33,000 nt of DNA from Oscillospiraceae bacterium (lineage in GTDB: Bacteria > Bacillota > Clostridia > Oscillospirales > Oscillospiraceae): positions 1 through 33,000 of the forward strand of contig JAFSCD010000005.1 in NCBI GenBank assembly GCA_017436955.1, in the 5' to 3' direction. Position numbers and translations under genes: made by a program. How positions within the stretch are numbered: position 1 is the first letter of the stretch; each line of letters starts with the position of its first letter. Shown piece after piece: positions 1 through 19,065 of the stretch. The notes beneath the pieces were generated by a model that was not told where the DNA came from, made no database searches, and saw only the letters and a program-made list of their open reading frames with translations.

Positions 1-784
1 CACAGCTTTGGTGTAGACCACGTTACCGGCGTTGTCCTTAATGCGGCAGCGGTAGTAGTTGCCGTTGTGGCTGGTCTTGCCGGTGAAGGTGAAGGTGGCG
101 CTGGTGGCCTTGCTGGAGGTGCAGTTCTTCCAGGTCTTGCCATCGGAAGAGCTCTGCCACTGATAGGTCTTGCCTGCGCCGGTTGCCTTGACGGTAAACT
201 TGACCGTATCACCTGCTTCTACCTTCTGGGTCTTGGGCTGGGTCGTTACACCCAGGACGTACAGCCGGACGGTATCGGTATAGACCACGTTGCCCTTGGA
301 ATCGGTGATCTTGCAGCGGTAATAGTTGCTGCTGTGGCTGGTCTTGGAGGTGAAGGTAAAGGTGGCGCTGGTCGCGGAGCTGCTGGAGCAGTTCTTCCAG
401 GTCTTGCCGTCAGCAGAGCTCTGCCACTGATAGGTCTTGCCTGCGCCGGTGGCCTTTACGGTATACTTGACCTTCTCGCCCACAGCGACCTTCTGGGTCT
501 TGGGCTGGGTCGTTACACCCAGGACGTACAGCCGGACAGCATCCGTGTATACCACGTTATCTTCCGCATCGGTAATGACGCAGCGGTAGTAGTTGCTGCT
601 GTGGCTGGTCTTGGTGGTGAAGGTGAAGGTAGCGCTGGTAGCGGAGCTGGAGGTGCAGTTCTTCCAGGTCTTGCCATCCTTGGAGCTCTGCCACTGATAG
701 GTCAGCCCGGTGCCGGTGGCTTCTACGGTGAAGGTAGCCTTGGTGCCGACCTTCTTATATGCCTTGCTGGGCTGCTTGGTGATC
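1..784 (-). repeat. Three tandem Ig-like domain repeats, 267-bp period
   Basis: Units lie at about 518-784, 251-517 and 1-250 (the last cut by the edge). Each encodes about 89 residues with the core YQWQSS.DGKTWKNC and a later YYRC, so the two cysteines can form the usual Ig disulfide. The same 30-base stretch recurs at 241 and 508, which gives the period. The units are very alike at DNA level, suggesting recent duplication. They sit at the C-terminal side of the left giant protein and may act as a stalk or binding array. Confidence 0.85.
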
Positions 785-3700
785 TCGGGAGCCTTGACGG
801 GAGCTTCCGTGGGCTCCTCCGTGGGTTCCTCGGTGGGTGTGGTAGGATCGGTGGGCGTTTCGGGCTCCACTCTGCTGGTGTCCCGATACAGCTCAAATTC
901 GCCGAAGGTGACACTGCTGCCGCCTGCAACGGAGTCCGCCCAGACGTAGATACCCTTTACGTTGTAGGTCTGTTCAAAGGTCCACTCCAGAGGCGCTGTT
1001 TTAATGCCCCAGTTGGGAGTAAAGGTCTGCGTCACCTGGGTGCCGTCCTGCAGCTCCAGAATGATGGTAACGGAGGTCATTGTGTAATTGCCGACACCAC
1101 CGTAGTACAGCTTTATTCTGTCAGCCGCAACTGCAGAGCCGTGGGCTCGGGTCAGGTCCACATAGAAGTCTCCTCTTTCGCCGGGAGATACGGTGTAGGA
1201 GATATCATTGGAGTAGTCACCGTCCACAAAATTCTCCAGATCTCTCCAATCGGGATAGGAGGTAGACCACCAGCTCTGATTTGCGTAGCTTACATTTGCG
1301 TTGTAATTACTGCAGGTACCGACCACGCAGCCACTTAAGCTGATCTTCTCCATAGGATCCACGGTGGGATCAGTGGGAGCTACGGTGGGATCGGTGGGTG
1401 CCACGGTGGGAGCTGCGGTGGGAGCCGGACCGGGTAAGGTGGGCGTGGTGGGAACGGTGGGATCCACAGTGGGAGGCAGCGGAATTCCCTGGGTGTCTTC
1501 TCCAACGATCACCCGGACGAGCCATTCCTTTGCGGTGCTGCCGGAGCCGGTAAGGGTATAAGCAATAGGCTCAGCAAAGTCCTGCGCAGCGCCGCTGTTG
1601 GGCGTGACGGTCCAGCCATCCTCCGCCACATACTGCAGAGACAGGGCGGAAAGGTCGGTATCTTCCGGTACGACGATGGTGGCGACCCGGTTGATATCGT
1701 CGTAGTAGGTGCGACCGATCTGGCCGGAGACGCGAACATCGTACCAGCCTCTTTCTTCGACAATGTATCTTGCGCAGTCGGAGTTGGTCCAGTATTCCTG
1801 CGAAATATTGTGACGCAGCCAGAAGCCCTTGTCCTCGCCGTTTTTGACGCTCTCGTCCAGCAGACCGGCTTCATAGGCAATAGACAGCGCCGCAGCGTTG
1901 CTGGACAGACTCTCAAAGGAAATGTTGTCCTTGGTGCTGTTGCCGACATTCACATAGTAGCCGCGTGTATCCAGCTTGGCGTTGTGGTAGTTGTCGTGGG
2001 TCTTGTTGTTGTGGATGGAATCGAACCAGATCTGCAGCCAGGACTGCGCCTCGGTATCGATAACATTGTGATGGATCTCCAGATGGGCACTGCCTTCATC
2101 CAGATAGATGGCGTTTTCCGTCTTGCTGGCGGTGGTGCCGGAATCGTGGATGTAGTTGTATGCGATCTCGGAATCCCTCTGTTCAGCCAGGGTGTAGATC
2201 GCACCGCCGTCATAATTGGTCTTACATACGTTGTGGATGTAGTTGTAGGTGATCCTGTTGTTGCCAACGGCGGAGTTGTTGGCTTCCGCGCTCCAGCCCC
2301 AGCCCAGGCTGATGCCGGTATAGGGGGTGTAGGAAACTTCGTTATGGTCGATCACAACGCCGTTGGTGTATCCGGCAAAGATACCGACAGAATCGTACAT
2401 ATCAATACCGATACGGGTCACGAAGTTGTTCTGAATGGTGGCGTTTGTGACCAACTGCCAATCTCTGAAGCCTGCCTGGGCAACGATCTCGCCGATCACG
2501 ATGCCGTTGTAGGAGATGTCGCAGACCAGGGAGTTGATAACCTTACAGCCATCGGAAATGACAACGCCGTCACTCTTGATACGGATACCGGCAGTACCCA
2601 TATTGCGGATCTGGCAGCCGTCAAAGACCACGTTCACACAGCCGGACAGCTCGATACCGCCGGGCACCTGGGTCCAGGTGTTGTTCAGCAGGTAGCAGTT
2701 TGCCTGCTCATCCACATACTGATTCTCGCTGGGGAAGGTGAAGGTAGTGTGGGAGAAGGTGATACCCTCGAAGGTAATGTTGCTGGCGTATTCCATATCG
2801 ATAACGTGCTCTGTTACGGGAAGATAGGCTTTCACATCATCCATATTGTCCTGCGCCATATAGTAGATCTTGCTTTCGTTGCGGTCAATGTACCATTCAC
2901 CGGGGGTGTCGATAAACATATAGTCATTGGACAGCCAGGTGGGCATCAGAGGCGTTCCCGACAGGGTTGCCATACCGTCATCCACATAAAGCTCGGTGCC
3001 GTCCAGAGAAGCACCGACGATGTGCTGGATTCTGTGATACCACAGGTACAGACTGTGCATTTCCACATGCTCGGCATTCTTCAGGTAGGAGAAGTTGTAT
3101 CTTGCGTCAGAGGTAATGCTGAGACCGGCGTTGCTCGTGTGCTCGATAAAGCCGTCAACCGCGCGGTTGGGATTAAAGTCGGAGGAGTAGCTGCTGGAAG
3201 CGGTGGCGCCCTTGGCGTCGTAAGTGATCACGCCGCTGGCGCTTTCACCCTGGGAAACGATATCGGTTGCGATGGGGTTGCCGGGATCGTGGATGTTCAG
3301 AAGTGTCAGCTCGCTGATGTGCAAATAAGTGACGGTGGAGCTTCTCCATTCGTCTCTGGGGATATTGCTCATAGGCGTTACCAGGGTAGCCACCAGACGC
3401 ACCTTGTACACTTCCGTTGTCGGGAAGGTGAAGGTCATCACATTTTTGATCGTCCAATCCTGCTCGACACCTTCTGCAACGGTGGTCCAGTTGTCGCGGT
3501 CGGCAGAGGTGGTGACCTGGAGAACGAAATCGTAAGGCGCGCAGAAGCCGTCATCCCGGACAGCCAGCTCGATGGTGTTGATCACAGAGGGCTTGCCGTT
3601 TTTCGTGGTGTTCAGCACCAGAGTGGGAATATTGGGACCGTAAGGCGGCATCCACTGATACTGCTGACCGTAGGTCGCGCCGTAGTTTTCATAGTTGCCG

Positions 3701-6099
3701 TCAAAGATCTTGGCGCCGGTGCCGTCGTTGTATTCAACCAGGGTCACAAGGTCAGCGCCGCGGTAGTAGCCGAATTCGATAATATCATCGGCGGTCAAGG
3801 CTACCTTATCGTGTACGACGGTCTCGGACTCAATGGTCTCGTCCACCTCGTAGGTGACCTTTTCGACGGTGTACAGCGTAAATTCGTTCAGGCAGAAGTC
3901 GGTGGTGTAGTTTGCGGGGTTGGCGCTGATGGCGGACTCGGGATAGGTGCCGTCCTCCTCAGTCAGATTGTAGACCAGGATACGGGCGGCGGTGATGGTA
4001 ACCTCGTCAAACTTGTAGCGCTGGGCGTAGTGGGCATCGGGCTGGGTCTTGTCGACCCACTGGGGATCGTCCTCGGCAGCGACGGTCTTCCATACACCGC
4101 CGGCGAGGACCTGGATCTCGTAATTCAGCGGCGCGGACCAGATGTCGGGGTCGATGGCCACTTCAATGGCGCCGATCGCAGTGGCTTTGTTCAGCTGAAG
4201 CAGGAAGGCAGGAACCTTGCTGCCGCCCCACTGCACCAGCTCGTTGTAGGTGAACTGACCGGTGTAGCCGTAGGAGCGCTGACCGTCAATGATGCACTCC
4301 GCTTCGCCGGAGGCTTTTTCATAGTCAATGAAGCTGCCGCTCACATCGGTATAGTAGCCAAGACGGGGCGTCAGACCGGATGTGGGAAGCGCGTTGTACA
4401 GGTTCTTGACGGCATAGCTGGGACCGTCGTCCTCGGCCAGAATTCCGGTAACGGTAGAAGGAACGATGTCCAGCTCGTCCAGCTGCAGGCTGTACTCGCC
4501 GTCGCCCAGCAGCATCAGGGGCTGCAGCTTGACGTACTGTGCCTTGTAGCCCTTGGGCAGCACCAGAAGCTGTGCGCCGCCGGTGGGTGTCTGAATGTCG
4601 GGCAGCTCCATCAGGGTGTGATAGGTCACACCGTCGGTGGAGACCTGAACACGGGCAGCCTTCATATAGCCGGCAACTTTACCGTCGGTGTAGGTGGGGT
4701 ACAGACGAATGCCGCCCACGTCCTGAACAGAGCCCAGGTCGACGATGAATTCTCCCTGATAGACAGAGGAGGACTGGACGCCGCTGTTGAAGCCACCGGA
4801 AAAGCCGTTGTCCATCAAAGCGCTTACGTCGGAGCCGTCGCCGGTTATGCTGCCGCCAAGCTCGGCAGGCGCATGCACCTTCAACTCGCCGACGGTAACG
4901 GCAGCGCCGCTGATGACACGCAGTTGGGTAGCGGCAACGGGATTGATGGCAAAAGTATTATCCTGCTTCCAGGTATAGCCGGTCTTGCTGTAGACCGTAT
5001 TCCAGGTGGTACCGTCGGTGGTCACCTGGATCTGAATGTCGCCTACGGTGTCGATCGCGGCGGCATCGGCGGTCATAACAACAGCGCCAACGGCGACAGC
5101 ATCGCCGAGGGTGACGGTATAGGGATCGCCGACGGTCAGATCAATATTGGTTGCGGTGGTAAGGGTGTTCGTCAGATCCACGTGCTGCACGACGCCAAGA
5201 TTGACAGCCTTTGTGGTGTTGCTGAAGCCAACCTGAACCTCCGCAAACGCCAGAGAATACTTGGAAGAATCGGGGTTGCCCAGCTTGGTTGCCTCGATCT
5301 TAACGTAGCGGGCATCGGTGGTGGAGAAGTAGAATGCCACACCGCCCAGAGCATCGGGAGCGGTAAAGCCGGTTTCGGCGGCCTGGGTCTTCCAGGTGCT
5401 GCCGTCGGAGGAGGTCTGAATGGTAAAGTCCTCCGGGAAACCAACGGCTTTGCGCGTGGTGGAAGATACAGTGCCATAGCCGTACAGCGTAACACTGGTC
5501 ACCAGCTTGGCTTCGCCCAGATCCACGGTCAGATACTGGGTGGTATTTGCAGAGGAGAACTCGGCGGACTGGTAGCCGTAGGAGGAGAAGGTCTCCAGCT
5601 CCGTAGGCGTCAGCTCCATAGCAGCCACGGGCTGGGGCTCGCCGTTGACGTAGAACTGGCGGGTCAGCTTGGCGTTCTTGGGGATGTCCGCAACGTAAAT
5701 GTTGTGCGCGGCATCGTGCAGCGTCCAGCTGTCCAGCTTTACGCCGCCGGAGATCAGAGCGGTCTCACCGGATGCGGCCCGGTATGTAATGGTGTGACCG
5801 TTCTTGCCGGATTCGGCTTCGCCGAAGGTAATGGACTGGGTCGCGTCGTATGTGCCACCCTTCAGGATGACAACGACATCACCGTCAGCACTCAATTCGG
5901 CAGCCTTTTTCTTGGCAGCCTGGAGGGTCTTGAAGGCTGTTTGCTCTGTGCTACCGTCATTGAAATCATCGCCGTTGACGGGGTCGATCCACAGATCGGC
6001 GTCTGCTTCCGTAGCGCTTGCGACGGTGATGGCTGGCATAACCGACAGCACCATACACAGCACCAAAAGAAGAGAAATGATTCTGGTGATCTTTTTCAT
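1..6099 (-). CDS. Giant secreted beta-helix protein with discoidin-like and Ig-like domains (3' end outside window)
   Basis: The frame is open from the ATG at 6099 to the left edge (about 2,033 residues) with no stop. AGGAGG lies 7 nt upstream of the ATG. The N-terminus (MKKITRIISLLLVLCMVLS) is a signal peptide with likely cleavage near residues 28-30. It is followed by DLWIDPVNGDDFNDGS and a TYRAASGETALISGG stretch, typical of right-handed beta-helix enzymes. Residues about 150-1050 hold several galactose-binding/discoidin-like modules (ARYVKIEA and AQYVKLQP strands). The beta-helix rungs resume at about 1,060-1,420 (NITFEGITFSHT, TNYDGGAIYTL, NAIYLDEGSA). Then come a Pro/Thr linker (about 1,540-1,580), another discoidin-like domain, a second linker and three 89-residue Ig-like repeats. 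The start resembles GH141-type glycosidases, but substrate and enzyme class cannot be told from sequence alone; a purely binding role is possible. It is a paralogue of the gene at 26070, in the opposite orientation. Confidence 0.9.
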   Translation of the reverse strand, partial: MKKITRIISLLLVLCMVLSVMPAITVASATEADADLWIDPVNGDDFNDGSTEQTAFKTLQAAKKKAAELSADGDVVVILKGGTYDATQSITFGEAESGKNGHTITYRAASGETALISGGVKLDSWTLHDAAHNIYVADIPKNAKLTRQFYVNGEPQPVAAMELTPTELETFSSYGYQSAEFSSANTTQYLTVDLGEAKLVTSVTLYGYGTVSSTTRKAVGFPEDFTIQTSSDGSTWKTQAAETGFTAPDALGGVAFYFSTTDARYVKIEATKLGNPDSSKYSLAFAEVQVGFSNTTKAVNLGVVQHVDLTNTLTTATNIDLTVGDPYTVTLGDAVAVGAVVMTADAAAIDTVGDIQIQVTTDGTTWNTVYSKTGYTWKQDNTFAINPVAATQLRVISGAAVTVGELKVHAPAELGGSITGDGSDVSALMDNGFSGGFNSGVQSSSVYQGEFIVDLGSVQDVGGIRLYPTYTDGKVAGYMKAARVQVSTDGVTYHTLMELPDIQTPTGGAQLLVLPKGYKAQYVKLQPLMLLGDGEYSLQLDELDIVPSTVTGILAEDDGPSYAVKNLYNALPTSGLTPRLGYYTDVSGSFIDYEKASGEAECIIDGQRSYGYTGQFTYNELVQWGGSKVPAFLLQLNKATAIGAIEVAIDPDIWSAPLNYEIQVLAGGVWKTVAAEDDPQWVDKTQPDAHYAQRYKFDEVTITAARILVYNLTEEDGTYPESAISANPANYTTDFCLNEFTLYTVEKVTYEVDETIESETVVHDKVALTADDIIEFGYYRGADLVTLVEYNDGTGAKIFDGNYENYGATYGQQYQWMPPYGPNIPTLVLNTTKNGKPSVINTIELAVRDDGFCAPYDFVLQVTTSADRDNWTTVAEGVEQDWTIKNVMTFTFPTTEVYKVRLVATLVTPMSNIPRDEWRSSTVTYLHISELTLLNIHDPGNPIATDIVSQGESASGVITYDAKGATASSSYSSDFNPNRAVDGFIEHTSNAGLSITSDARYNFSYLKNAEHVEMHSLYLWYHRIQHIVGASLDGTELYVDDGMATLSGTPLMPTWLSNDYMFIDTPGEWYIDRNESKIYYMAQDNMDDVKAYLPVTEHVIDMEYASNITFEGITFSHTTFTFPSENQYVDEQANCYLLNNTWTQVPGGIELSGCVNVVFDGCQIRNMGTAGIRIKSDGVVISDGCKVINSLVCDISYNGIVIGEIVAQAGFRDWQLVTNATIQNNFVTRIGIDMYDSVGIFAGYTNGVVIDHNEVSYTPYTGISLGWGWSAEANNSAVGNNRITYNYIHNVCKTNYDGGAIYTLAEQRDSEIAYNYIHDSGTTASKTENAIYLDEGSAHLEIHHNVIDTEAQSWLQIWFDSIHNNKTHDNYHNAKLDTRGYYVNVGNSTKDNISFESLSSNAAALSIAYEAGLLDESVKNGEDKGFWLRHNISQEYWTNSDCARYIVEERGWYDVRVSGQIGRTYYDDINRVATIVVPEDTDLSALSLQYVAEDGWTVTPNSGAAQDFAEPIAYTLTGSGSTAKEWLVRVIVGEDTQGIPLPPTVDPTVPTTPTLPGPAPTAAPTVAPTDPTVAPTDPTVDPMEKISLSGCVVGTCSNYNANVSYANQSWWSTSYPDWRDLENFVDGDYSNDISYTVSPGERGDFYVDLTRAHGSAVAADRIKLYYGGVGNYTMTSVTIILELQDGTQVTQTFTPNWGIKTAPLEWTFEQTYNVKGIYVWADSVAGGSSVTFGEFELYRDTSRVEPETPTDPTTPTEEPTEEPTEAPVKAPEITKQPSKAYKKVGTKATFTVEATGTGLTYQWQSSKDGKTWKNCTSSSATSATFTFTTKTSHSSNYYRCVITDAEDNVVYTDAVRLYVLGVTTQPKTQKVAVGEKVKYTVKATGAGKTYQWQSSADGKTWKNCSSSSATSATFTFTSKTSHSSNYYRCKITDSKGNVVYTDTVRLYVLGVTTQPKTQKVEAGDTVKFTVKATGAGKTYQWQSSSDGKTWKNCTSSKATSATFTFTGKTSHNGNYYRCRIKDNAGNVVYTKAV

Positions 6100-6344: not shown

Positions 6345-6500
6345 CCCTGTTGCGGTGCCCGATAAAATCTTCGGGCTTGCGCTTTTCCTCGATTTTATCG
6401 ACCGCTGCCACTCGCTCGCCTTCCTTTTTCCGCCACCGGCGGCGGTCGGCTCGCTCCCCTCCGGGAACCCGGAGGTCGGCTGGAATCGTTCTTCATAACT
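6345..6500. other. Structured GC-rich non-coding element between tRNA 3'-end repeats
   Basis: No credible coding sequence is present. There are three nested or adjacent palindromes. A perfect 10-bp stem joins 6360-6369 with 6391-6400. A CCGCC/GGCGG hairpin lies near 6431-6443. An 8-bp stem joins 6458-6465 with 6468-6475 (CCTCCGGG/CCCGGAGG). The open frame crossing it runs through the tRNA and is spurious. It may be a small non-autonomous repeat or insertion attached to the tRNA gene. Family is unknown. Confidence 0.6.
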
Positions 6501-6536
6501 AAAGAAAACACCACCCAAACGGGTGGTGTTTTCTTT
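6501..6536 (-). terminator. Terminator of the initiator tRNA gene
   Basis: A perfect 16-bp stem (6501-6516 with 6521-6536) closes an AAAC loop, with T-rich ends. It begins at the CCA of the tRNA on the minus strand, so it ends the tRNA transcript. Confidence 0.9.
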
Positions 6537-6564
6537 GGTTGCGGAGGCAGGACTCGAACCTACG
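6534..6564 (-). repeat. 31-bp direct repeat copy within the tRNA-fMet 3' end
   Basis: This is the genuine tRNA copy of the 31-bp sequence repeated at 6314-6344. It covers the T-arm, acceptor 3' strand and CCA. Confidence 0.85.
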
Positions 6565-6611
6565 ACCTCCGGGTTATGAGCCCGACGAGCTTCCAACTGC
6601 TCTACTCCGCG
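6536..6611 (-). tRNA. Initiator tRNA-fMet (CAT anticodon)
   Basis: The minus strand folds as a 76-nt tRNA including encoded CCA (6538-6536). The acceptor arm is CGCGGAG against CTCCGCA, so position 1 is C facing A72. That mismatch is the hallmark of bacterial initiator tRNA. The anticodon loop is CTCATAA and the stem has three consecutive G-C pairs, the other initiator feature. The T-arm has GGTTCGAGTCC. It has its own promoter upstream and a strong terminator immediately downstream. Confidence 0.95.
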
Positions 6612-6670: not shown

Positions 6671-6729
6671 CCCCTATTGTATCCGCTTTTTGGCGTTCTA
6701 TTCAGATCGTGGGCATTCTCCGGGGGTTT

Positions 6730-6758
6730 TTGCATTTTTTGATATTTCGTGCTATAAT
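6730..6758 (+). promoter_or_regulatory. Promoter of the sigma factor-serpin operon
   Basis: TTGCAT at 6730-6735, a 17-bp spacer and a perfect TATAAT at 6753-6758. It lies about 75 bp before the sigma factor ATG. The form is that of the housekeeping sigma factor, so basal expression does not need the ECF sigma itself. No second promoter is obvious. Confidence 0.75.
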
Positions 6759-6831
6759 CATTACACATTTCCCGGTTTTTCCTGACTATATAGGTGAAGG
6801 GCCTTTCAAAACGGCAGAGAGGGGGAGAGAG

Positions 6832-7407
6832 ATGGAACTTCAAACAGTAGCATTATCGCTGGACGATGAAAAGATCATTGCGCTCTATTGGGCGCGGGAT
6901 GAAAAAGCCATTACGGAAACGGACAAAAAGTACAGAAACTATCTGTTTTGTGTGGCGCGAAACATTCTGCAGGCGCAGCCGGATTGCGAGGAATGCCTGA
7001 ATGATACCTATCTTGCCGCCTGGAATGGGATGCCGCCTGCGATGCCGAGAGTACTGAAGGCGTTTTTGTCCACGATCGCCCGACGCATCGCCATCAACCG
7101 CTATCACAAAAATCAGCGTCACAGCGAAATGACGGTGGCGCTGAGCGAACTGGAGGATATTTTGTCGGACAGCGAGGACATAAGCGCGCAGCTGGATGCC
7201 CGGGAGCTGGGCAGCGCGATCAGCGCTTTTCTGCGTGAGCTGCCCCAGCGCCGGCGGTTTGTGTTCATCAGCCGCTACTATATGGCAGAGCCGATTGACA
7301 CCATCGCAAAGCATTTGGGATTAAGCCGTTCTATGGTGAACAAGGAGCTGGCGGCTGTCCGCAAAGACCTGAAGGAAAAACTGGAAAGTGAGGGATATGC
7401 CTTATGA
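6832..7407 (+). CDS. ECF-type RNA polymerase sigma factor
   Basis: 191 residues starting MELQTVALSL. The ATG at 6832 follows a GGGGGAGAGAG ribosome site; an upstream in-frame ATG at 6664 lies before the promoter and is rejected. Region 2 spans about residues 13-85 (DCEECLNDTYLAAWNGMPP and a helix ending in IARRIAINRYHKNQR). Region 4 spans about 130-185 (LPQRRRFVFISRYY, then the helix-turn-helix DTIAKHLGLSRSMVNKEL). Sigma-1 and sigma-3 regions are absent, as in ECF factors. Its stop overlaps the next start (ATGA at 7404-7407), which implies coupled translation with a membrane serpin, the likely cognate regulator. The target promoters are unknown. Confidence 0.92.
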   Translation: MELQTVALSLDDEKIIALYWARDEKAITETDKKYRNYLFCVARNILQAQPDCEECLNDTYLAAWNGMPPAMPRVLKAFLSTIARRIAINRYHKNQRHSEMTVALSELEDILSDSEDISAQLDARELGSAISAFLRELPQRRRFVFISRYYMAEPIDTIAKHLGLSRSMVNKELAAVRKDLKEKLESEGYAL

Positions 7408-9080
7408 AACCGCAAGATTGGAACGAAGGTCTGAACCATCTGGATCAGGACCTTGTGGAAGAATATATCGAACTGAAAGATAAGAAAAGAAAGCCCAAAA
7501 GACCCTTTTGGATGGCGACCGTGGCGGCAGCGCTGGTGGTGACCATCGGGTTGGGAATGCTGGCAGGAAACGGCATATTGCCCTCCAACCCGCCCAGCCT
7601 GGAGACGCTTCCGGCAACAGAGCCGTCAACCCCCACAACCGCCGCACCCACGCAACCCGTCGTGACCAATCCGGCTACGATTGCGCCCACAAGACCTGTT
7701 GTGACCAATCCGGCTACGATTGCGCCCACGCAACCCGTCGTGACCAATCCGGCTACGTTTGCGCCTACGCAACCCGTCGTGACCAATCCGCCGACTACAC
7801 CGCCCCAGGAGCCGGTGATCGTACCGCTGAACAACCTGGTGTATGAGCCGGTGTATCCGCAGATGATGAAATATCCCAGCGCAAAGGACTACAACACCAA
7901 TTCCGTTGGCTTTTACAAAGCAGTGGAAGTATGGAAACAAGACCGCCGGAATCAGTATCTGCAGCCCGATGGCTACGCAGACAGCCTGACGGATTATTTT
8001 CAAAAAAGCACCCAGCAATTCCTGCAGGGCGACGGCAATCAGGTCTATTCGCCGCTGAACGTATATATGGCGATGGCGATGGTGGCGGAAACCGCAGATG
8101 GTAATTCCCGGCAGCAGATTTTGGATCTGTTTGGATTGGAGACCATCGAGCAGCTTCGGGAGCAGGTAAACAACCTTTGGAACGCCCATTATTGCGATGA
8201 TGGCGTCACTTCTACGCTGCTTGCCAACTCGCTGTGGTTGGATGATTCCTATTCCTACAATCAGGAAACGGCGCAGCTTTTGGCGAATCGGTATTACGCC
8301 TCCACCTTCAACGGTGATCTGGGTACAGATGCGATGAACCAGCAGCTGCGAAGCTGGCTGAATGAGAACACCGGCGGCATGCTGACCGAGCAGGCGAATA
8401 ATATTTCTTTGCCCAAAAATACCGTGTTTTCCCTGGCATCCTCCGTCTATTTCACCGCCTCCTGGGACAGCAAATTCGGCGAGAAGAATACAAAGGATGC
8501 GCTGTTCCATGCTGCGGATGCGGACAGAAAAGTTCCGTTTATGAACAAAAAACTGATGAATTATACCTATTTTTGGGGTGAAAATTTCGGCGCTGTGGAG
8601 CTGGCGCTGACCGGCAACAACAGTATGTGGCTGATCCTGCCGGATGAAGGCTATACTGTTGCAGATGTTCTGGCAAGCGACGAGTATCTGCAAATGACCC
8701 TGAATTCTGAAGCCTGGGAAAATCAGAAGAAGCTGGATATCAACCTGAGCGTTCCCAAATTTGATGTTGTGGAGCAGCAGGATCTGGTTTCCGGGCTGAA
8801 AGCCATGGGTGTGACGGATGTGTTTGATTCGAGCACTGCGGACTTTGATATTGTGACAGACGAAACGCCCGTGTGGGTGGACGAGATCAACCACGCTGCC
8901 CGGGTAGTCATTGACGAGGATGGCTGCAAGGGCGCAGCCTTTACGGTTATAGTATATGCCGGTATGGCACCTCCGCCGGATGTGGACGAGATCGACTTTG
9001 TTCTGGACAGACCCTTCGCGTTTATCGTCAGCAGCCAGGATAATCTGCCCCTCTTTGCCGGTGTCGTGAACGAGCCGTAA
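7404..9080 (+). CDS. Membrane-anchored serpin with anti-sigma-like N-terminus
   Basis: 558 residues. Residues 1-34 are a charged cytoplasmic segment (GLNHLDQDLVEEYIEL) like the short tails of partner proteins encoded next to clostridial ECF sigma factors. Residues about 35-55 are one membrane helix. Residues 60-145 are a Pro/Thr stalk with four 13-residue repeats. About 190-558 is a complete serpin: QVYSPLNVYMAMAMVAE, SLASSVYFTASWDSKF and a C-terminal DRPFAFIV...PLFAGVVN. The reactive loop is near 503-525, with hinge DEDGCKGAAFT. Counting from the hinge Gly as in alpha-1-antitrypsin puts Met521-Ala522 at the scissile bond. Serpins trap serine or cysteine proteases; this one should face outside. 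It overlaps the sigma gene by 4 bp. Whether it inhibits proteases, controls the sigma factor or both is inference. Confidence 0.9.
   Translation: MKPQDWNEGLNHLDQDLVEEYIELKDKKRKPKRPFWMATVAAALVVTIGLGMLAGNGILPSNPPSLETLPATEPSTPTTAAPTQPVVTNPATIAPTRPVVTNPATIAPTQPVVTNPATFAPTQPVVTNPPTTPPQEPVIVPLNNLVYEPVYPQMMKYPSAKDYNTNSVGFYKAVEVWKQDRRNQYLQPDGYADSLTDYFQKSTQQFLQGDGNQVYSPLNVYMAMAMVAETADGNSRQQILDLFGLETIEQLREQVNNLWNAHYCDDGVTSTLLANSLWLDDSYSYNQETAQLLANRYYASTFNGDLGTDAMNQQLRSWLNENTGGMLTEQANNISLPKNTVFSLASSVYFTASWDSKFGEKNTKDALFHAADADRKVPFMNKKLMNYTYFWGENFGAVELALTGNNSMWLILPDEGYTVADVLASDEYLQMTLNSEAWENQKKLDINLSVPKFDVVEQQDLVSGLKAMGVTDVFDSSTADFDIVTDETPVWVDEINHAARVVIDEDGCKGAAFTVIVYAGMAPPPDVDEIDFVLDRPFAFIVSSQDNLPLFAGVVNEP
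7644..7799 (+). repeat. Four 39-bp in-frame repeats in the serpin stalk
   Basis: Units start at 7644, 7683, 7722 and 7761. Each encodes about APTQPVVTNPATI (13 residues), the last one diverging at its end. The repeats lie between the membrane helix and the serpin, so copy-number change would alter stalk length without a frameshift. Confidence 0.92.
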
Positions 9081-9107
9081 GCAGCATACTGAATAATGTA
9101 TATTTTA

Positions 9108-9143
9108 GTCCCGGATTTCAAAAAGAAATCCGGGACGATTTTT
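9108..9143 (+). terminator. Terminator of the sigma-serpin operon
   Basis: A perfect 12-bp stem, GTCCCGGATTTC (9108-9119) with its complement (9125-9136), loop of A's, then GATTTTTT. It lies 28 bp after the serpin stop and also separates it from the convergent glycosyltransferase remnant. Confidence 0.9.
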
Positions 9144-9152
9144 TGTTGAATT

Positions 9153-13009: not shown

Positions 13010-13038
13010 AAAAGAAGCGCCGATGGCGCTTCTTTTTT
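13008..13038. terminator. Bidirectional terminator between tagD and the capsule operon
   Basis: A perfect 14-bp stem (13008-13021 with 13025-13038), loop GAT, with A6 and T6 tracts at its two ends. It overlaps the stop codons of both convergent genes and can end transcription from either side. Confidence 0.93.
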
Positions 13039-14233
13039 ATTCGACGATCTCAAAGAATGTATCCGGGTGAGAGGGGTCAAACTGCTCGTTTGCCCACATT
13101 ACGGTCACCAGATTCTCTGTATCGGACAGATTGATGATGTTGTGCGTGTAGCCGGGCAGCATATGGACGGCTACGATCTTCTCGCCGCTTACTTCAAAAT
13201 TCAGCACTTCATCCGTGCCGATCTTACGCTGCTGGATCAGACCGTGACCGGAAACGACAATGAAAAATTCCCACTTGGTATGGTGCCAGTGCTGACCCTT
13301 GGTGATGCCGGGCTTGGAGATGTTGATGCTGAACTGACCGCATTTTTCGGTTTTCAGCAGCTCGGTAAAGCTGCCCCGGGCATCCACATTCATTTTCAGG
13401 GGGAAGCTGACCTTCTCCTTGGGCAGATAGCTTAAGTAAGTTGCGTACAGCTTTTTGGCGAAGCTGCCGGCAGGGATCTCGGGCATTACCAGCGTATTGG
13501 GCTGTGTTTTGAAGCTGTCCAGCAGATCCACGATCTCGCCCAGAGTTACCTTGTGGGTAATGGGAGCGGCGCAGTATCTGCCGCTGTCACACAGCACGGT
13601 ATCAATGCCGTCAAATTCGCAGCGATGCTCCTTACCCTCCAGTGCGTCCAGCATTTCTTCCACCAGATCGTCAATGTACAGCAGCTCCAGCCGGATGCTG
13701 CGATCGGTGACGGTGATGGGCAGGTCGTTGGCGGTGTTGTTGCAGAAGGTGGCAACGGCGCTGTTATAATTGGGTCTGCACCACTTGCCGAACAGATTGG
13801 GGAAACGGTACACCAGCACCTTGGCACCGGTCTCGGCGCCGTAGGCGAACATCAGCTCCTCACCGGCCTTTTTGCTTCTGCCGTAGTCGCTGTCATAGCG
13901 ACCGATGCAGGTGGCCTGAATGGAGGAGGAGATCATAACGGGGCAGGCGTTGCTGTGCTTTTTCAGCGCATCCAGCAGCGTGGAGGCAAAGCCGAAATTG
14001 CCCTGCATAAACTCCTCGGGATTCTGGGGACGGTTTACGCCGGCAAGATTGAATACGAAATCCGCCTTTGCGCAGTATTCGTCCAAAAGCGCGGGATCGG
14101 TGTCCAGATCGTACTCGTAAATTTCATCAATGGTCAGGGTGCGGGTGCGGTTTTTGCCGTCACGGATGGTTTTCAGGGTCTCAACCAGATTCCGTCCCAC
14201 AAAGCCCTTGGCGCCTGTAATGAGAATGTTCAT
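13037..14233 (-). CDS. capF: UDP-2-acetamido-2,6-dideoxy-L-talose-forming reductase (CapF/FnlB)
   Basis: 398 residues. The N-terminal SDR domain has GAKGFVGRN (residues 7-15), VFNLAGVNRP and YGRSKKAGEE with the Tyr-Lys pair. The C-terminal cupin (about 280-398) has GQHWHHTKWEFFIVVSG, whose histidines bind metal. This two-domain form and length are diagnostic of CapF/FnlB/WbjC. It acts after FnlA, reducing the 4-keto sugar to UDP-L-PneNAc on the route to UDP-L-FucNAc. The start overlaps the uridine kinase stop (ATGA at 14233-14230). It is the last gene of the capsule operon, followed by the 13008-13038 terminator. The 2-epimerase (FnlC/CapG) is not in the window. Confidence 0.92.
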   Translation of the reverse strand: MNILITGAKGFVGRNLVETLKTIRDGKNRTRTLTIDEIYEYDLDTDPALLDEYCAKADFVFNLAGVNRPQNPEEFMQGNFGFASTLLDALKKHSNACPVMISSSIQATCIGRYDSDYGRSKKAGEELMFAYGAETGAKVLVYRFPNLFGKWCRPNYNSAVATFCNNTANDLPITVTDRSIRLELLYIDDLVEEMLDALEGKEHRCEFDGIDTVLCDSGRYCAAPITHKVTLGEIVDLLDSFKTQPNTLVMPEIPAGSFAKKLYATYLSYLPKEKVSFPLKMNVDARGSFTELLKTEKCGQFSINISKPGITKGQHWHHTKWEFFIVVSGHGLIQQRKIGTDEVLNFEVSGEKIVAVHMLPGYTHNIINLSDTENLVTVMWANEQFDPSHPDTFFEIVE

Positions 14234-14850
14234 ACTGCTTCTCCTAAAAGCTGTTGGATTTTATTTTTTACCAGATCGAAGGCGGTGTCGTTCATACCGC
14301 CGTTGATGATGATATCCGCGTAAGCCTTGGTTGGCTCAACGAAGGCGTTGTGCATAGGCTTCACCGTGGCAAGATATTGGCTGATGATGCCGTCCAGATC
14401 TCTGCCGCGCTCCACCATGTCCCGACGCACACGGCGCAAAATGCGCTCATCCGCATCGGTCTCCACATAAATGCGCATATCCATCAGCTCCCGAAGCTGG
14501 GGCTCCACAAAGATCAGAATACCGTCAATGAGGATCACGGGCTTGGCGGCGATCTGCAGGATCTGCTGGCTGCGGTCGTGGGTGGTAAAGTCATACACGG
14601 GGCAGGCGATGTCCTTGCCGGCCTTCAGTTCCTGGATCTGCCGGATCATCAGGTCAAATTCAAAGGCCTCGGGAGAATCGTAATTCTGGAGTCTGCGCTC
14701 CTCCAGGGGCATATCGTGCCGGGCAAGGTAATAGTTATCGCAGCTGACCAGGGCAATATCATCGGGAAACTGCTCTTTCAGCCGCTTGGCAAAGGTAGAT
14801 TTGCCGGAGCCGCTGCCGCCGGCAATTCCGATCACAAATGCGTCTGCCAT
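14230..14850 (-). CDS. udk: Uridine kinase
   Basis: 206 residues starting MADAFVIGIAGGSGSGKSTF, a P-loop with Lys17. CDNYYLARHDMPLEER and NYDSPEAFEFDL are the substrate-lid signatures of uridine/cytidine kinase, and RRVRRDMVERGRD is the LID region. The length matches Udk. It phosphorylates uridine or cytidine to UMP or CMP. It lies between fnlA and fnlB, 1 bp after the fnlA stop and overlapping the capF start by ATGA, so it is co-translated with UDP-sugar enzymes. It may feed the UTP/CTP pool for nucleotide sugars. A longer in-frame start near 14931 would run into fnlA and is rejected. Confidence 0.9.
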   Translation of the reverse strand: MADAFVIGIAGGSGSGKSTFAKRLKEQFPDDIALVSCDNYYLARHDMPLEERRLQNYDSPEAFEFDLMIRQIQELKAGKDIACPVYDFTTHDRSQQILQIAAKPVILIDGILIFVEPQLRELMDMRIYVETDADERILRRVRRDMVERGRDLDGIISQYLATVKPMHNAFVEPTKAYADIIINGGMNDTAFDLVKNKIQQLLGEAV

Positions 14851-14851
14851 A

Positions 14852-15904
14852 TCAGATCTTCCGTCCCATGGCGGCCAGTTCGGCCTGAATGTAGGCAAGG
14901 GACGCGATCTTTGCCTTGGTCTGCTCCACATCCAGCAGCTGGGTGTTGTGGGAGTTGAACTCCGTCAGGGGATTGCGCTCGGCGTCACCCTGGCTGATGT
15001 ACTTATCGTAGTTCAAGCCGCGCTTGTCGCAGGGTACGCGGTAGAAAGCGCCCATATCAATGGCGTTGGCGCACTCCTCGTTGGTCAGCAGGGTCTCGTA
15101 CATCTTTTCGCCGTGGCGGATGCCGATGACCTTGATGTTCTTCTTGTCGCCGCCAAACAGCTCGCAAACAGCTTCAGCCTGGGTCTGGATGGTGCAGGCA
15201 GGTGCCTTCTGTACCAGAATATCGCCGCTCTCGCCGTGCTCAAAGGCAAAGAGCACCAGGTCAACCGCCTCGTCCAGAGACATAATGAAACGGGTCATAG
15301 AGCCGTCGGTGATGGTGATGGGGTTGCCGCTTTTGATCTGCTCGATCCACAGCGGGATCACGGAGCCACGGGAGCACATTACGTTGCCGTAGCGGGTGCA
15401 GCAGATCTTGGTTCTTTCGGGGCTGACGGTTCTGGACTTGGCAACGATGACCTTCTCCATCATCGCCTTGGAGGTACCCATGGCGTTGACGGGGTAGGCG
15501 GCCTTGTCGGTGGAAAGGCAGACCACGTTCCGGACGCCGGCTTCGATAGCGGCGGTCAGCACATTTTCGGTGCCCAGCACATTGGTCTTGACAGCCTCGA
15601 TAGGGAAGAACTCGCAGGAGGGGACCTGCTTGAGCGCGGCGGCGTGGAAAATATAGTCAACGCCGTGCATCGCGTTCTTGACGGAAGCCAGGTCACGGAC
15701 GTCGCCGATATAGAACTTGATCTTATCCGCCACCTCCGGCATTCTTACCTGGAATTCGTGGCGCATATCGTCCTGCTTCTTCTCATCGCGGGAGAAGATG
15801 CGGATCTCGCCGATATCGGTCTGAAGAAACCGGTTCAGCACCGCGTTGCCGAAAGAACCGGTACCACCGGTGATCATCAATGTTTTACCTGTAAATAAAC
15901 CCAT
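14852..15904 (-). CDS. capE: UDP-GlcNAc 4,6-dehydratase/5-epimerase (CapE/FnlA type)
   Basis: 350 residues. TGGTGSFGNAVLNRFL starts at residue 12 (NAD binding). STDKAAYPVNAMGTSKAMME carries the Lys of the SDR active site with Met replacing Tyr, as in the CapE/FlaA1 group. RYGNVMCSRGSVIPLW and FIMSLDEAVDLVLFA follow, and the C-terminal YDKYISQGD part is typical of FnlA/WbjB. It converts UDP-GlcNAc to the 4-keto-6-deoxy L-sugar that CapF then reduces. AGGAG lies before the ATG at 15904. It is followed after 1 bp by udk. PseB-like enzymes are close relatives, but pairing with CapF favours the FnlA role. Confidence 0.9.
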   Translation of the reverse strand: MGLFTGKTLMITGGTGSFGNAVLNRFLQTDIGEIRIFSRDEKKQDDMRHEFQVRMPEVADKIKFYIGDVRDLASVKNAMHGVDYIFHAAALKQVPSCEFFPIEAVKTNVLGTENVLTAAIEAGVRNVVCLSTDKAAYPVNAMGTSKAMMEKVIVAKSRTVSPERTKICCTRYGNVMCSRGSVIPLWIEQIKSGNPITITDGSMTRFIMSLDEAVDLVLFAFEHGESGDILVQKAPACTIQTQAEAVCELFGGDKKNIKVIGIRHGEKMYETLLTNEECANAIDMGAFYRVPCDKRGLNYDKYISQGDAERNPLTEFNSHNTQLLDVEQTKAKIASLAYIQAELAAMGRKI

Positions 15905-15939
15905 AAGTATCGCTCCTGCTCTTTATGTAATATTGTAAA

Positions 15940-17037
15940 TCAATAATTGTCTTCAAAATCCTGAATATCGTAGGTGGCAACGCCTGCTTTCTTTCGCATT
16001 GGCGCCCACAAAAGCCACACAAGCCACAAATAGGGCTCAAAGGATATGAGTGCAAATATCCAGTTCAGCAGATCGGCTTTCCAGCTTTGCCGCTTGTCGA
16101 TCTTAAACTGCTTCCAATCCACGCCGAAGGGGTACAGCTTTTCTGCCTTTACCCGCTTGAGAAAGGCTTTCAGGAACGTTTTGTCCTTGCAGAACATCAG
16201 CATACTGCGCAAGCACGACTGCATAGCACGAACCTGCGCATTGCGCATTCTTGCGTTGGTGTCGGTGCCGTCGTAGTTTTGGAAGGACATCTCCTTCATA
16301 GCGGCGTATTCCTTTGCCAGCTTGTACATACAGCCGCAATGTCGGCTGTAATTTACCTTGTGGGATACGGAGTCGGCTCTTTGGAAGTAATAGTAAACCG
16401 GGGCTTCCGTCATTACCATCCGCCTGCATCTCGCCTTGAACTTTGCAATGAACAAGGTATCATCGGAATAGTAAACATCGGGGCGGAAGCGGATTTTGTA
16501 CTGATCCAGAATGTCCTTGCGGAACCAGTAGAAGCCGGAGCCGGTGGTATAATGGCTGCCAAACATCTGATAGCCGCCGGCAATGTACGAAGGCTTGTAA
16601 GCATCCAGCTGAACATCCGTTTCGCAATATTCATAGACCCGCTTTTCCCGGAAGAGAAGCAGATCGTTGTCGCCGTCCATAACAATATCGCACAGATATT
16701 TCAGGCAGTTCTTCTCAATCCAGTCATCGCCGTCAACAAACCAGACATACCGTCCGGTCGCTTTCTCCAGGCCGGCAGAGCGGGCGAGCACAACGCCGCG
16801 GTTTTCACCGTGGAACACCTTGATGTTGGGGTATCTGCTTTTGTAGCTTTCCAGGATGTCGTAGGTGCCGTCCTTGGAACCGTCGTTGATACAGATGACT
16901 TCATAGCTTGCCGGGTCGATATTCTGATGCATCAAAGAATCCAGACATCTTCCAATGTAATCCTGCAGATTGTATACGGGGATTACGATGGACAAAAGAA
17001 GCCCGGTGGATGTTGCGGCAGAGTCTTTTGTTTCCAT
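15940..17037 (-). CDS. GT2 family glycosyltransferase
   Basis: 365 residues. AGGAGG lies 7 nt before the ATG at 17037. The GT-A domain begins at about residue 13: LLSIVIPVYNLQDYIGRCLD, VICINDGSKDGT and the DxD motif WFVDGDDWIEKN. Acceptor-side motifs are RPDVYYSDDTLF and VYYYFQRADSVSHKVN, like EpsJ-type enzymes. Hydrophobic patches at about 320-345 (WIFALISFEPYLWLVWLLW) suggest membrane association near the C-terminus. It likely adds a sugar to the lipid-linked capsule unit on the cytoplasmic side. It lies between the acyltransferase and capE in the same operon. Sugar specificity is not visible. Confidence 0.88.
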   Translation of the reverse strand: METKDSAATSTGLLLSIVIPVYNLQDYIGRCLDSLMHQNIDPASYEVICINDGSKDGTYDILESYKSRYPNIKVFHGENRGVVLARSAGLEKATGRYVWFVDGDDWIEKNCLKYLCDIVMDGDNDLLLFREKRVYEYCETDVQLDAYKPSYIAGGYQMFGSHYTTGSGFYWFRKDILDQYKIRFRPDVYYSDDTLFIAKFKARCRRMVMTEAPVYYYFQRADSVSHKVNYSRHCGCMYKLAKEYAAMKEMSFQNYDGTDTNARMRNAQVRAMQSCLRSMLMFCKDKTFLKAFLKRVKAEKLYPFGVDWKQFKIDKRQSWKADLLNWIFALISFEPYLWLVWLLWAPMRKKAGVATYDIQDFEDNY

Positions 17038-17071
17038 TCCATTACCTCCTGAATGAATGCGTGTGCGGCGC

Positions 17072-18115
17072 TTACCGATTACCGCTGAAAACCCAGTGCA
17101 GCGGTTTTATATAGCGCAAAATCCATGCCACCGCCACGGAGATGGCAGTAACCGTCAGCCAGCTCACAGCGAAATACAGCAAAGCAGGCAGGGTCAGCCC
17201 GGCGAAAATAAACTTTCCCAGAAAAATGCCCGCTGCCGAATGCACGCCGTAGATAATCATTGTGGAGACCTTCGGCGCAGGGAACACCTTGTCCTGCTGG
17301 CAGAGCCTCACCATCAGCAACAAAAACGCGGCGAACACCAGCGGCACAGCAATTCGGTTGTTGAAGCAGGGAATGAGCCGGTCAAACAGCAGCGATTCCA
17401 GCAGACTTGCCCCAAAGAGTGCTACAATGAGCAGCGCCAGGGGAATCCGCCTGGCAGTTTTCAGCAGCCACGCCTGCACATCGGTGTGCCGGGCAAGCAG
17501 GCAGCCAAGCCAATAGTAGGCAAAGAAGTTCGGCTGGAACAGCGCCCGCTCGTAGCCGCCCAAATCCACGGACAGCTCCCATCCCGGGATTCCTGCGATC
17601 ACCGCTGCCATCAGAAGAACGATGCTGACGGTTGTGTTCTTGAGGGCAAGCGTAAGAGCCGGCGCCAGCAGAATGAATACACACAGCTGGAACATATACC
17701 ACATCGGGAATGCGTACTCGTAAAAAACGATACCCTTCAGGATGCTGAGGATATCCAGCGCTACATTTCCCTGCAGAAAACCGGGGACCAGCAGGGAAAC
17801 CGCCGCATACATCCCGTAGTAAAATGCGGACCAGGCCAAGAACGGCATCAGCACAGAGGTCACGCGCTTCTTCTGCTTTTGCAGCGCATCGCTGACCGTG
17901 TCTACGTTTCGGTAAAACAAATAGCCGGACAGCAGAAAAAAGATGGGAACAGCGGTGGTGCAAATGCCGTGGGTCAGGAAGCTGATGATTCGCGAAGAAA
18001 TCGTATAGGCGTTGCCGTCTACCATATGCATATGGATGGCAACCACCATCAGGGAACAGACCACCGGCACGATATTCAGGAAATTGCTGTTGATGAAAGA
18101 AGTGTTCTTTTTCAT
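17072..18115 (-). CDS. Membrane acyltransferase (acyltransferase 3/OafA-like)
   Basis: 347 residues from ATG 18115, which has AAAGGG 9 nt upstream. An upstream ATG at 18148 lacks a ribosome site and overlaps the previous gene. About ten hydrophobic segments fill the protein. FLNIVPVVCSLMVVAIHMHM contains the conserved early His of this family. AVPIFFLLSGYLFYRNVD is the signature loop, and FPMWYMFQLCVFILL follows. These enzymes move acetyl or other short acyl groups to surface sugars across the membrane. Here the target is probably the capsule polymer. It sits between two glycosyltransferase genes. The acyl donor and site cannot be told. Confidence 0.87.
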   Translation of the reverse strand: MKKNTSFINSNFLNIVPVVCSLMVVAIHMHMVDGNAYTISSRIISFLTHGICTTAVPIFFLLSGYLFYRNVDTVSDALQKQKKRVTSVLMPFLAWSAFYYGMYAAVSLLVPGFLQGNVALDILSILKGIVFYEYAFPMWYMFQLCVFILLAPALTLALKNTTVSIVLLMAAVIAGIPGWELSVDLGGYERALFQPNFFAYYWLGCLLARHTDVQAWLLKTARRIPLALLIVALFGASLLESLLFDRLIPCFNNRIAVPLVFAAFLLLMVRLCQQDKVFPAPKVSTMIIYGVHSAAGIFLGKFIFAGLTLPALLYFAVSWLTVTAISVAVAWILRYIKPLHWVFSGNR

Positions 18116-18128
18116 AATCTTGAGCCCT

Positions 18129-19046
18129 TTATGTACGGTCTGTAACAATTCTGCGGTAGGCTTCGGGGTAGGCTTCCATCAGCTTTTTGAAATCAATTTC
18201 AGAGGCGTTTTCCACCACATTTTGTGTGGCCAGCTGAACCGTCTGCGATTGCGCGACAAGGGAGAAGATTTTGTGGTACTTTCTGGTTTTGATAAAGCGA
18301 ACGCCGTTTTCGGCGGCCATAAACATACACCACATATCGTCGTTTTTCAACGCATACTTGATAATCAGCTCTTTTTTCAGCATATGCTGCGGATATGCGC
18401 CGTAGGGGATGAGATAACCGCCGCCGGTGGAAGGGCAAACGGAGAAAGAAGGCTGCTTACAGGCAACGTCGGAAATGGTATCCCATCTGCCGACATTGTA
18501 TAAATTCGTTTTCTTCTTCGGAAAAGCCTGCGCCCGCTCGCAAACGAGACAGCCCGGGAATTCCCGATGCTTGGCAACAAGCCGCTTGATAGCATCTATA
18601 GGATAGATAATGTCATCGTCAAAGGTGATGACAACTTCGTTTTCCTTTTGTTCCTGGATGCAGTAGAAATATTTTTTGTGGCCGAACAGATTGTCGCACC
18701 ACTTGATTTCCAGACCGTATTTTTCAAGGTCGGTAAGACTTTCGGGGAGCGTATGGTTGGGGAATTGCTCTTCTGCCAGCCAGAGGATAATTCTGTCCGG
18801 CTTGCAGGACTGCTGCATCAATGACTTGATGGCAAGGTGCGCATAGTTAATTCGCGCGGGGAACGAAGTCAAGGAAGCAGTTACGCGAATATCCCGCTTC
18901 TCTTGATTGAGCGGCTGCGCCGGAATCTTACTGCTCCCAATCAGTTTGTTGTCCAGCTTTGAAAAAAACCGGTAGGATACACCGCCAAAATACGGAATCC
19001 GGATTGCTTCCGGAAATTTTAACTTTTCGGTTAATCTGCGGTTCAT
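18129..19046 (-). CDS. Glycosyltransferase with DxD motif (GT-A type)
   Basis: 305 residues from ATG 19046, with AGAGG 8 nt upstream; a TTG two codons earlier is too close to that site. Key stretches are VTASLTSFPARINYAHLAIK, QQSCKPDRIILWLAEEQFP, VVITFDDDIIYPIDAIKRLV (the DxD donor-metal site) and KNDDMWCMFMA. No signal peptide or membrane segment is seen. This pattern recurs in capsule loci of Firmicutes, where the enzyme is annotated only as a glycosyltransferase. It follows the flippase and precedes the acyltransferase in the operon. Linkage and sugar are unknown. Confidence 0.82.
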   Translation of the reverse strand: MNRRLTEKLKFPEAIRIPYFGGVSYRFFSKLDNKLIGSSKIPAQPLNQEKRDIRVTASLTSFPARINYAHLAIKSLMQQSCKPDRIILWLAEEQFPNHTLPESLTDLEKYGLEIKWCDNLFGHKKYFYCIQEQKENEVVITFDDDIIYPIDAIKRLVAKHREFPGCLVCERAQAFPKKKTNLYNVGRWDTISDVACKQPSFSVCPSTGGGYLIPYGAYPQHMLKKELIIKYALKNDDMWCMFMAAENGVRFIKTRKYHKIFSLVAQSQTVQLATQNVVENASEIDFKKLMEAYPEAYRRIVTDRT

Positions 19047-19065
19047 ATTCAAAACCTCTTATCGC

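Follow-up and report, generated by a model that had tools for sequence, protein, structure and literature searches.

What is a protease inhibitor doing at the outer end of a protein whose gene begins inside the stop codon of a sigma factor gene? The question is raised by a two-gene operon in 33,000 nucleotides of DNA from an Oscillospiraceae bacterium (contig JAFSCD010000005.1, positions 1 to 33,000; this whole stretch is called the window below), in which a gene for an extracytoplasmic function (ECF) sigma factor overlaps a gene for a one-pass membrane protein that ends in a complete serpin. We consider it moderately probable that the serpin is the sensor and trap domain of an autoregulated one-pass anti-sigma factor, resembling the pairing of RsiV with lysozyme. 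The proposal draws on the anatomy of the operon, the evolutionary coupling of the short cytoplasmic tail to the sigma factor, the swapping of ectodomains behind that tail, the appearance of the same fusion in two ECF families, a conserved promoter element, and the inhibitory hinge of the serpin. From these we infer that the tail binds the sigma factor, that a protease is the signal, that the sigma factor is released by proteolysis, and that the operon controls itself.

A sigma factor gene and its serpin partner

The genome that holds the operon is 1.54 Mb long and 82% complete. The parts of the operon, in order along the window, are as follows.

6729..6758, plus strand: sigma70-like promoter (TTTGCA, 18 nucleotides, TGCTATAAT), matching at 10 of 12 positions
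6760..6801, plus strand: ECF-type promoter element, with a weak -35-like ATTACA at 6760-6765, a -10-like TGACTA at 6783-6788 and a conserved downstream TATAGGTGAAGGG
6832..7407, plus strand: ECF sigma factor gene, 191 amino acids (sigma2 and sigma4), ATG at 6832, stop at 7405-7407, with Pfam and NCBIfam matches
7404..7505, plus strand: charged cytoplasmic tail, residues 1-34, a putative anti-sigma segment, beginning inside the sigma stop (ATGA)
7506..7568, plus strand: single transmembrane helix with an AA motif (WMATVAAALVVTIGLG), about residues 35-55, hydropathy 2.06
7569..7847, plus strand: stalk, residues 56-148, unusually long in the window protein, including a 39-base repeat
7848..8018, plus strand: N-terminal serpin extension (YPQMMKYP...), residues 149-205, kept in fused and in lipoprotein relatives
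8019..9077, plus strand: serpin domain (PF00079), residues 206-558, the stop codon ending at 9080
8916..8966, plus strand: serpin hinge and reactive loop, P17 Glu505 to predicted P1 Met521, in the alpha-1-antitrypsin register
9108..9146, plus strand: intrinsic terminator, 12 pairs followed by a T run, the longest stem among terminator-like sites

A sequence-only reading of this DNA had described a sigma gene, an ATGA overlap, a protein built of tail, membrane helix, repeat stalk and full serpin, and a terminator, and all of these are borne out by the open frames, the profile matches, and the hydropathy, which places a single hydrophobic helix at about residues 35-53. The sigma protein belongs to the ECF superfamily by its scores of 30.6 bits against Sigma70_r2 (cut-off 24) and 34.2 bits against Sigma70_r4_2 (cut-off 25.7) in Pfam and of 66 bits against TIGR02937 in NCBIfam (cut-off 42.9); its ATG was chosen by position and by the preceding GGGGGAGAG, the open frame itself extending to a TTG at 6664. 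The ATG of the partner at 7404 lies within the sigma stop, so that the genes share four bases, and its frame stays open to 9080, giving 558 amino acids. A near-complete serpin fills residues 206-558 (E = 2e-64, profile positions 18-370 of 370) and is the only above-cut-off Pfam match of the partner, whose ectodomain is thus not of the RsiV type. Neither Pfam nor NCBIfam gave an RsgI domain match in the partner, and the sigma factor beside it is of ECF type, which places the pair outside the RsgI family. The 39-base tandem repeat (3.7 copies, 7647-7790) builds part of the stalk. The terminator, its 12-pair site at 9108-9136, is one of five terminator-like sites found in the region, where 3.0 are expected, and no serpin besides that of the window was found in the genome. 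The assignment of P17 to Glu505 and of P1 to Met521 assumes that the register of alpha-1-antitrypsin holds here.

Does the tail follow the sigma factor?

The listed relatives of the window sigma factor, which we call sigmaA, share 38-48% identity with it and are very numerous. Most of their partner genes begin within the sigma stop codon, and almost all of the partners have the same tail pattern and a membrane helix, followed by ectodomains that differ. Among all 135 sigma-partner pairs gathered, the overlap is exactly four bases in 114. The tail pattern reads E-D-L-x-[DE]-A-[LI]-G ... V-D-D-[DE]-L-[VI]-x-x-A and continues with a K/R cluster and a W; the window tail deviates from it at some positions. 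Neither Pfam nor NCBIfam has an above-cut-off match to the window tail, nor does any anti-sigma model of Pfam, and six other sigmaA tails are likewise without a Pfam match. Class I anti-sigma factors have a cytoplasmic domain of about 50 amino acids or more (as stated in a part of PMC7406223), and the window tail, at 34 residues, is shorter than this; the median over 116 pairs is 38 residues, with 3 helix residues counted in. Such a length is compatible with a Class II anti-sigma factor and the divergence of the tail tracks that of the sigma factor, although the helices of the tail and its binding are putative.

How tight is this coupling? Distances were compared by Mantel-type tests in 53 serpin fusions and in 116 sigmaA pairs, 5 of the 121 pairs having been excluded here and from the same-genome test because fewer than 150 sigma residues were present. 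Among the fusions, sigma distances correlate with tail distances at r = 0.55 and with serpin distances at 0.16; given the serpin, the partial correlation of sigma and tail is still 0.54 (p = 0.001), and given the tail, that of sigma and serpin is -0.02 (p = 0.60). Over all 116 pairs, the correlation with the sigma factor is 0.45 for the tail and just 0.09 for the membrane helix. Effects of the organism are removed when sigma factors and tails are matched within genomes that hold at least two pairs, and in this test the cognate match beats the swapped one in 11 of 12 comparisons (10 genomes, that of the window included). At the level of sequence, these comparisons show that tail and sigma factor evolve as one unit; that the one binds the other is a prediction.

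The sequence-only reading, in which the serpin was a possible sensor domain of an anti-sigma factor, had named covariation of the tail with the sigma factor as its check; the tail does covary, and for the serpin no covariation is left after controlling for the tail. It had also taken a serpin freely swapped or absent, with no link to the sigma type, as the case that would speak against it. The first half of that case is found, as described next; the second is not, since the tail follows the sigma factor.

Many ectodomains behind one kind of tail

The 121 sigmaA pairs comprise 55 with a serpin, many of them chosen for their serpin, and 66 with another partner. When loci were instead sampled by similarity of the sigma factor, a serpin partner was present in 10 of 69 (5 of 29 and 5 of 40), and the remaining 59 have a tail, a transmembrane helix, and a non-serpin ectodomain. 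On the sigma tree, the label of serpin or other partner needs 16 changes, at least 7 of them on starred branches. Even the window genome has a second sigmaA gene (L007, G000:C9:208955-209107), with a 418-residue non-serpin partner of the same tail-helix build. Small sigma/tail modules of this kind thus seem to form a large family whose ectodomains are many and varied.

Two side observations belong here. The loci L072-L100 and L181-L220 belong to a large ECF family, of which many genomes have several members, and whose partners share one short kind of tail and carry many different ectodomains. At L159 (5815-8724), a tandem pair of tail-helix-serpin genes stands behind one sigma gene, the two tails being nearly identical.

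One serpin subfamily, two anchors, two ECF systems

Of 400 genomes sampled from the family, 215 contain a serpin. The loci sets used here (the 30 nearest serpin loci, the sigma relatives, and the best 80 loci) share species; repeated rows were removed from the sigma-partner pairs, the serpin tree, and the hinge comparison. Among the 30 best loci by Pfam score, none of 33 serpin open reading frames (ORFs) has an overlapping ECF gene, and 4 of the 33 have a non-overlapping ECF gene 0.6-1.1 kb upstream that has another partner of its own. Among the 30 loci nearest to the window, an overlapping ECF gene precedes 17 of 33 ORFs (the window included); flanks of 1.5 kb cut some neighbors there, and the tailed serpin of L057 is counted as ECF-less for this reason. 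In a scan of a named collection, from which the best 80 loci were kept among at least 592 stretches with at least 454 relatives, an overlapping ECF gene lies upstream of 51 of 86 serpin ORFs (42 sigmaA and 9 of a second family, sigmaB, described below) at 50 of the 80 loci, so that over half of the sampled members of the subfamily look like sensor parts. The 35 ECF-less ORFs of this set have a lipobox in 27 cases by a strict pattern and in 30 by a loose one. It thus appears that one serpin subfamily has two kinds of surface anchor: some members are lipoproteins, and others form the ectodomain of a sigma partner. Its named relatives among the best 80 loci come from Oscillospiraceae, Lachnospiraceae, and other Clostridia, many of them, by their titles, from animal guts.

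The second family, sigmaB, is an ECF sigma factor of 158 residues with a different tail, standing before the same serpin subfamily. It scores 83 bits against the SigW model, compared with 29 for the window sigma factor, both below the cut-off. Nine sigmaB-serpin ORFs lie in the best 80 loci and one among the 30 nearest. Of 30 loci gathered from 300 genomes by similarity to one such sigma factor, the 11 nearest are all serpin linked, and the other 19 have different ectodomains; in two of the 11 sigmaB-serpin pairs the genes are separated, by 3 and by 15 bases, and the partner frame of one of these two is short. The sigmaB-serpin loci are L111, L124, L128, L134, L140, L141, L157, L173, L180, L065, and L226-L236.

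Did the fusion arise more than once? On a serpin tree made by a quick method and carrying long-branch warnings, it takes 17 changes to account for the states sigmaA, sigmaB, and neither (the tree label "lipo" means no overlapping ECF gene, and at least 4 rows so labeled have no lipobox). Starred branches force at least 5 changes for sigmaA but no more than 1 for sigmaB, and the sigmaB form may therefore have arisen once.

A conserved promoter element

What would turn the operon on? The sequence-only reading had noted a promoter, and the sigma70-like site is indeed present at 6729-6758, but three such sites lie in the region where 2.3 are expected by chance. A second promoter-like element at 6783-6801 (TGACTATATAGGTGAAGGG) went unmentioned in that reading and is also kept in relatives. 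The regions before sigmaA genes have in common a TGTAA(C/G)-like -35, a spacing of 16-17 bases, a CGTCTA-like -10, and then TATAGGTGAAAGG; the -35-like ATTACA of the window was placed using the spacing seen in L101. This work used 77 of the 121 sigmaA upstream regions, the rest being too short or without a suitable sigma start (most of L181-L220 carried only about 100 bases of upstream sequence). A leave-one-out score of 10 or more is reached in 55 of the 77, against 2.1% of shuffles; of 72 serpin genes that no ECF gene overlaps, 5 reach it. The window element scores 24.3 and is the sole site without mismatch in its genome, and 100 shuffles of the window gave no match within 3 mismatches. Control of its own operon is the simplest reading of this element, its dependence on the sigma factor being putative.

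Are there other targets? None was found beyond the operon itself with this motif in the 82% complete genome. Two further genome matches, with 3 mismatches each, were rejected as targets: one lies within a long open frame on the same strand, and the other has no listed frame of at least 60 codons starting close downstream. A reversed control pattern with up to 3 mismatches gave 9 genome matches, compared with the 2 additional ones of the promoter motif. As a separate observation, ECF-promoter-like sites (GGAAC or GCAAC, 16-17 bases, CGTCT) lie upstream of serpin genes without an overlapping ECF gene at L011, L031, L040, L049, and L126, where an ECF sigma factor encoded elsewhere may be in control.

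Hinge, stalk, extension, and helix

Can the serpin trap a protease, and could the membrane feel it? Inhibitory serpins are marked by Glu at P17, Gly at P15, small residues at P12-P10, and a reactive loop of the right length. The window hinge, EDGCKGAAFT, has these marks, with a loop stretch one residue above the commonest length. Every one of the 48 fused sigmaA serpins with a readable hinge has Ala at P10 and Thr at P8, and 46 have Ala at P12; serpins without an overlapping ECF gene have the same three residues (43 of 43 for each), one fused serpin and one other being without a readable hinge. The length of the reactive loop is nearly constant, and 43 of the 48 fused sigmaA serpins have a small residue (A, S, G, or T) at the predicted P1. 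The inhibitory hinge is thus largely kept, and we predict that the window serpin traps proteases.

The sequence-only reading had held that a long flexible stalk argues against direct mechanical coupling. The objection is true of the window protein, whose stalk was measured at 102 residues, and is weakened by the relatives, most of which have a short stalk (18-30 residues in 32 of 47 fused sigmaA proteins). With stalks as short as these, direct coupling may be possible. Between stalk and serpin core lies a conserved extension (YPEM...YP...W). In tengpin, another bacterial serpin, the native state is controlled by such an extension, which makes the one seen here a candidate link. The transmembrane helix contains AA in all 121 sigmaA partners, where within-helix shuffling predicts about 87. 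An AxA motif stands between helix and serpin in 33 of 47 sigmaA and in 10 of 10 sigmaB partners, and the window genome has an M50 protease.

A proposed mechanism

Based on these observations, we posit a mechanism in which the short tail would hold the sigma factor inside the cell while the serpin is displayed at the surface. The attacker would be a serine protease of elastase or subtilisin type, which could come from the host, from a competitor, or from the envelope of the cell itself; on attacking the reactive loop it would become trapped. Trapping would change the shape of the serpin and thereby use it up, and the spent anti-sigma factor would be cut outside the membrane (site 1) and then, within the membrane, by an M50 protease. 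With the remnant cleared by a Clp protease, the freed sigma factor would transcribe its own operon and so yield more serpin, such that the trap would both report and replace its own consumption.

We also put forward, more tentatively and as the less certain of the two proposals, that the one-shot suicide reaction may itself be the transmembrane signal: each trapped protease would spend one anti-sigma factor and order its replacement, giving gut Clostridia a self-counting, self-refilling shield by way of two ECF sigma/tail systems. If a serpin does serve as the receptor domain of a bacterial transcription switch, its shape change would gain a signaling role, there would be an explanation of how inhibitor production in some gut bacteria might be adjusted to protease attack, and a ready-made protease-responsive reporter would be at hand.

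Weighing the mechanism against its rivals

Several observations weigh against the serpin as sensor of an autoregulated anti-sigma factor. P12 of the window serpin is Gly, where 46 of the 48 fused sigmaA serpins have Ala, and the window stalk is the longest of the 47 measured (itself included). The AA motif also exceeds expectation in the signal helices of control lipoproteins (28 of 57, against 16.7 expected from shuffling), and the helices that carry it are alanine-rich and belong to related sequences; the sigma partners are thus not alone in the excess, though only among them is the motif universal. The AxA motif resembles a signal-peptidase site and was considered as a mark of site 1, but was set aside, as it occurs in 19 of 34 lipobox relatives too. 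The -35 of the window is degenerate, the score of the promoter element is inflated in short-leader operons, where part of the element coincides with the ribosome-binding region and may be a ribosome-binding signal, and other targets may sit outside the 82% complete genome sequence. Finally, the membrane helix likewise matches its own sigma factor in 10 of 12 same-genome comparisons, mostly by smaller margins, and co-residence in one gene pair may explain part of the signal that links tail and sigma factor. With this last reservation, covariation supports the structural half of the earlier proposal, that the serpin is the ectodomain of a sigma partner.

Could the serpin instead be defensive cargo, put on display by an anti-sigma factor whose tail answers another cue, such as envelope damage or the activity of the site-1 protease? 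The same serpin subfamily also sits on lipoprotein anchors without an overlapping sigma gene (27 or, loosely, 30 of 35 in the best 80 loci), with the same type of reactive loop, and an operon that seems autoregulated makes the serpin an output as well. Cargo, however, has no need of fusion to an anti-sigma factor, and many different domains sit behind the same kind of tail in the sigmaA family, as sensors would. That the same serpin subfamily has entered two ECF systems would be a coincidence for cargo and is expected of a useful sensor. We regard this alternative as unlikely, though it deserves to be taken seriously.

Alternatively, might the serpin act as a guard, or fuse? In this scheme, the intact serpin would inhibit the site-1 protease of its own cell in cis, and its exhaustion by outside proteases would let that protease cut and free the sigma factor. 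The hinge and loop are kept as in an active inhibitor, the small predicted P1 (43 of 48) fits one conserved protease target, and the stalk is short in most of the relatives measured. Yet serpins without an overlapping sigma gene share the loop type, which therefore does not set the fused serpins apart, and the site-1 protease is itself a postulated component only; we judge the guard improbable.

It seems to us very improbable that the genes overlap through ordinary operon packing alone and that the tail serves membrane insertion without taking part in the control of the sigma factor: tight gene overlaps are common in bacteria, the tail matches no Pfam or NCBIfam model above cut-off (Pfam only for the six other tails), and the helix also goes with its own sigma factor in those 10 of 12 comparisons, but the tail pattern spans partners with different ectodomains, is missing from the listed lipobox relatives, and diverges along with the sigma factor, and packing by chance was rejected on the shared pattern, the 114 exact overlaps in 135 pairs, and the covariation of sigma factor and tail.

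Neighboring genes

The stretch 6345-6460, near a tRNA-Met gene (6536-6611, minus strand), may be an interspersed repeat; parts of it are found again, with about 79-88% identity, at other places in the genome and in relatives. The minus strand holds, on one side of the operon at 1-6099, an open frame of more than 2000 residues with F5/8 type C domains (the scan covered 3001-6099) and, on the other side at 13037-25681, genes for surface polysaccharide (epimerase-like, glycosyltransferase, and polysaccharide export-like); one of six frames scanned in the polysaccharide region has no Pfam match.

Comparison with known systems

How does the serpin partner, read as an anti-sigma factor with a sensing trap, compare with systems already described? 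It differs from RsiV, whose ectodomain is not known to be a serpin, and the sigmaA tail is of another type. CnrY likewise is not known to have a serpin ectodomain. The binding of lysozyme by RsiV differs from the covalent trapping performed by serpins, and the sigmaB-type tail is putatively RsiV-like. RsiV of Bacillus subtilis inhibits its sigma factor, binds and inhibits lysozyme, and, once bound to lysozyme, becomes a substrate of signal peptidase and then of RasP (described in a part of PMC5014341). The resemblance to SigV/RsiV would thus lie in an ECF sigma factor with a one-pass anti-sigma factor, an outer domain that inhibits a host defense enzyme, and a self-amplified operon (same part of PMC5014341), the counterparts in our operon being predicted from sequence.

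SigI/RsgI of Clostridium thermocellum is likewise a sigma/anti-sigma family with swapped sensor ectodomains, in which RsgI passes through RseP and ClpXP steps and most transmembrane helices have XAA motifs read by ClpXP (according to a part of PMC12203970); the AA of sigmaA partner helices is reminiscent of these motifs. In contrast, SigI forms a group of its own and is not an ECF sigma factor, and the sensors of RsgI are carbohydrate-binding, hydrolase, peptidase-like, or undefined domains (from the same part of PMC12203970). CnrY, a Class II anti-sigma factor, wraps two helices round the ECF sigma factor CnrH (in a part of PMC7406223), and its short anti-sigma segment is comparable, by description and not by sequence, to the tail seen here.

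Among the papers listed by full-text searches, mostly of non-subscription literature, none is described there as reporting a serpin paired with an anti-sigma factor or an ECF sigma factor. A serpin phylogeny notes membrane-anchored prokaryotic serpins, and its main text, as far as available, does not contain "sigma factor" (PMC8233489); the available part of a review of bacterial serpins does not contain "sigma" (PMC6718151). Among inhibitory serpins of Clostridia, the siropins of Eubacterium siraeum and PinA of Clostridium thermocellum are alike by description only. PinA inhibits subtilisin-like proteases of C. thermocellum (as cited in a part of PMC12484212). They differ from the window protein in being described as inhibitors, and the main text of the siropin paper contains neither "sigma factor" nor "transmembrane." Anti-sigma factors with sensing ectodomains are already known, and what would be new here is the class of sensor that the anti-sigma factor carries.

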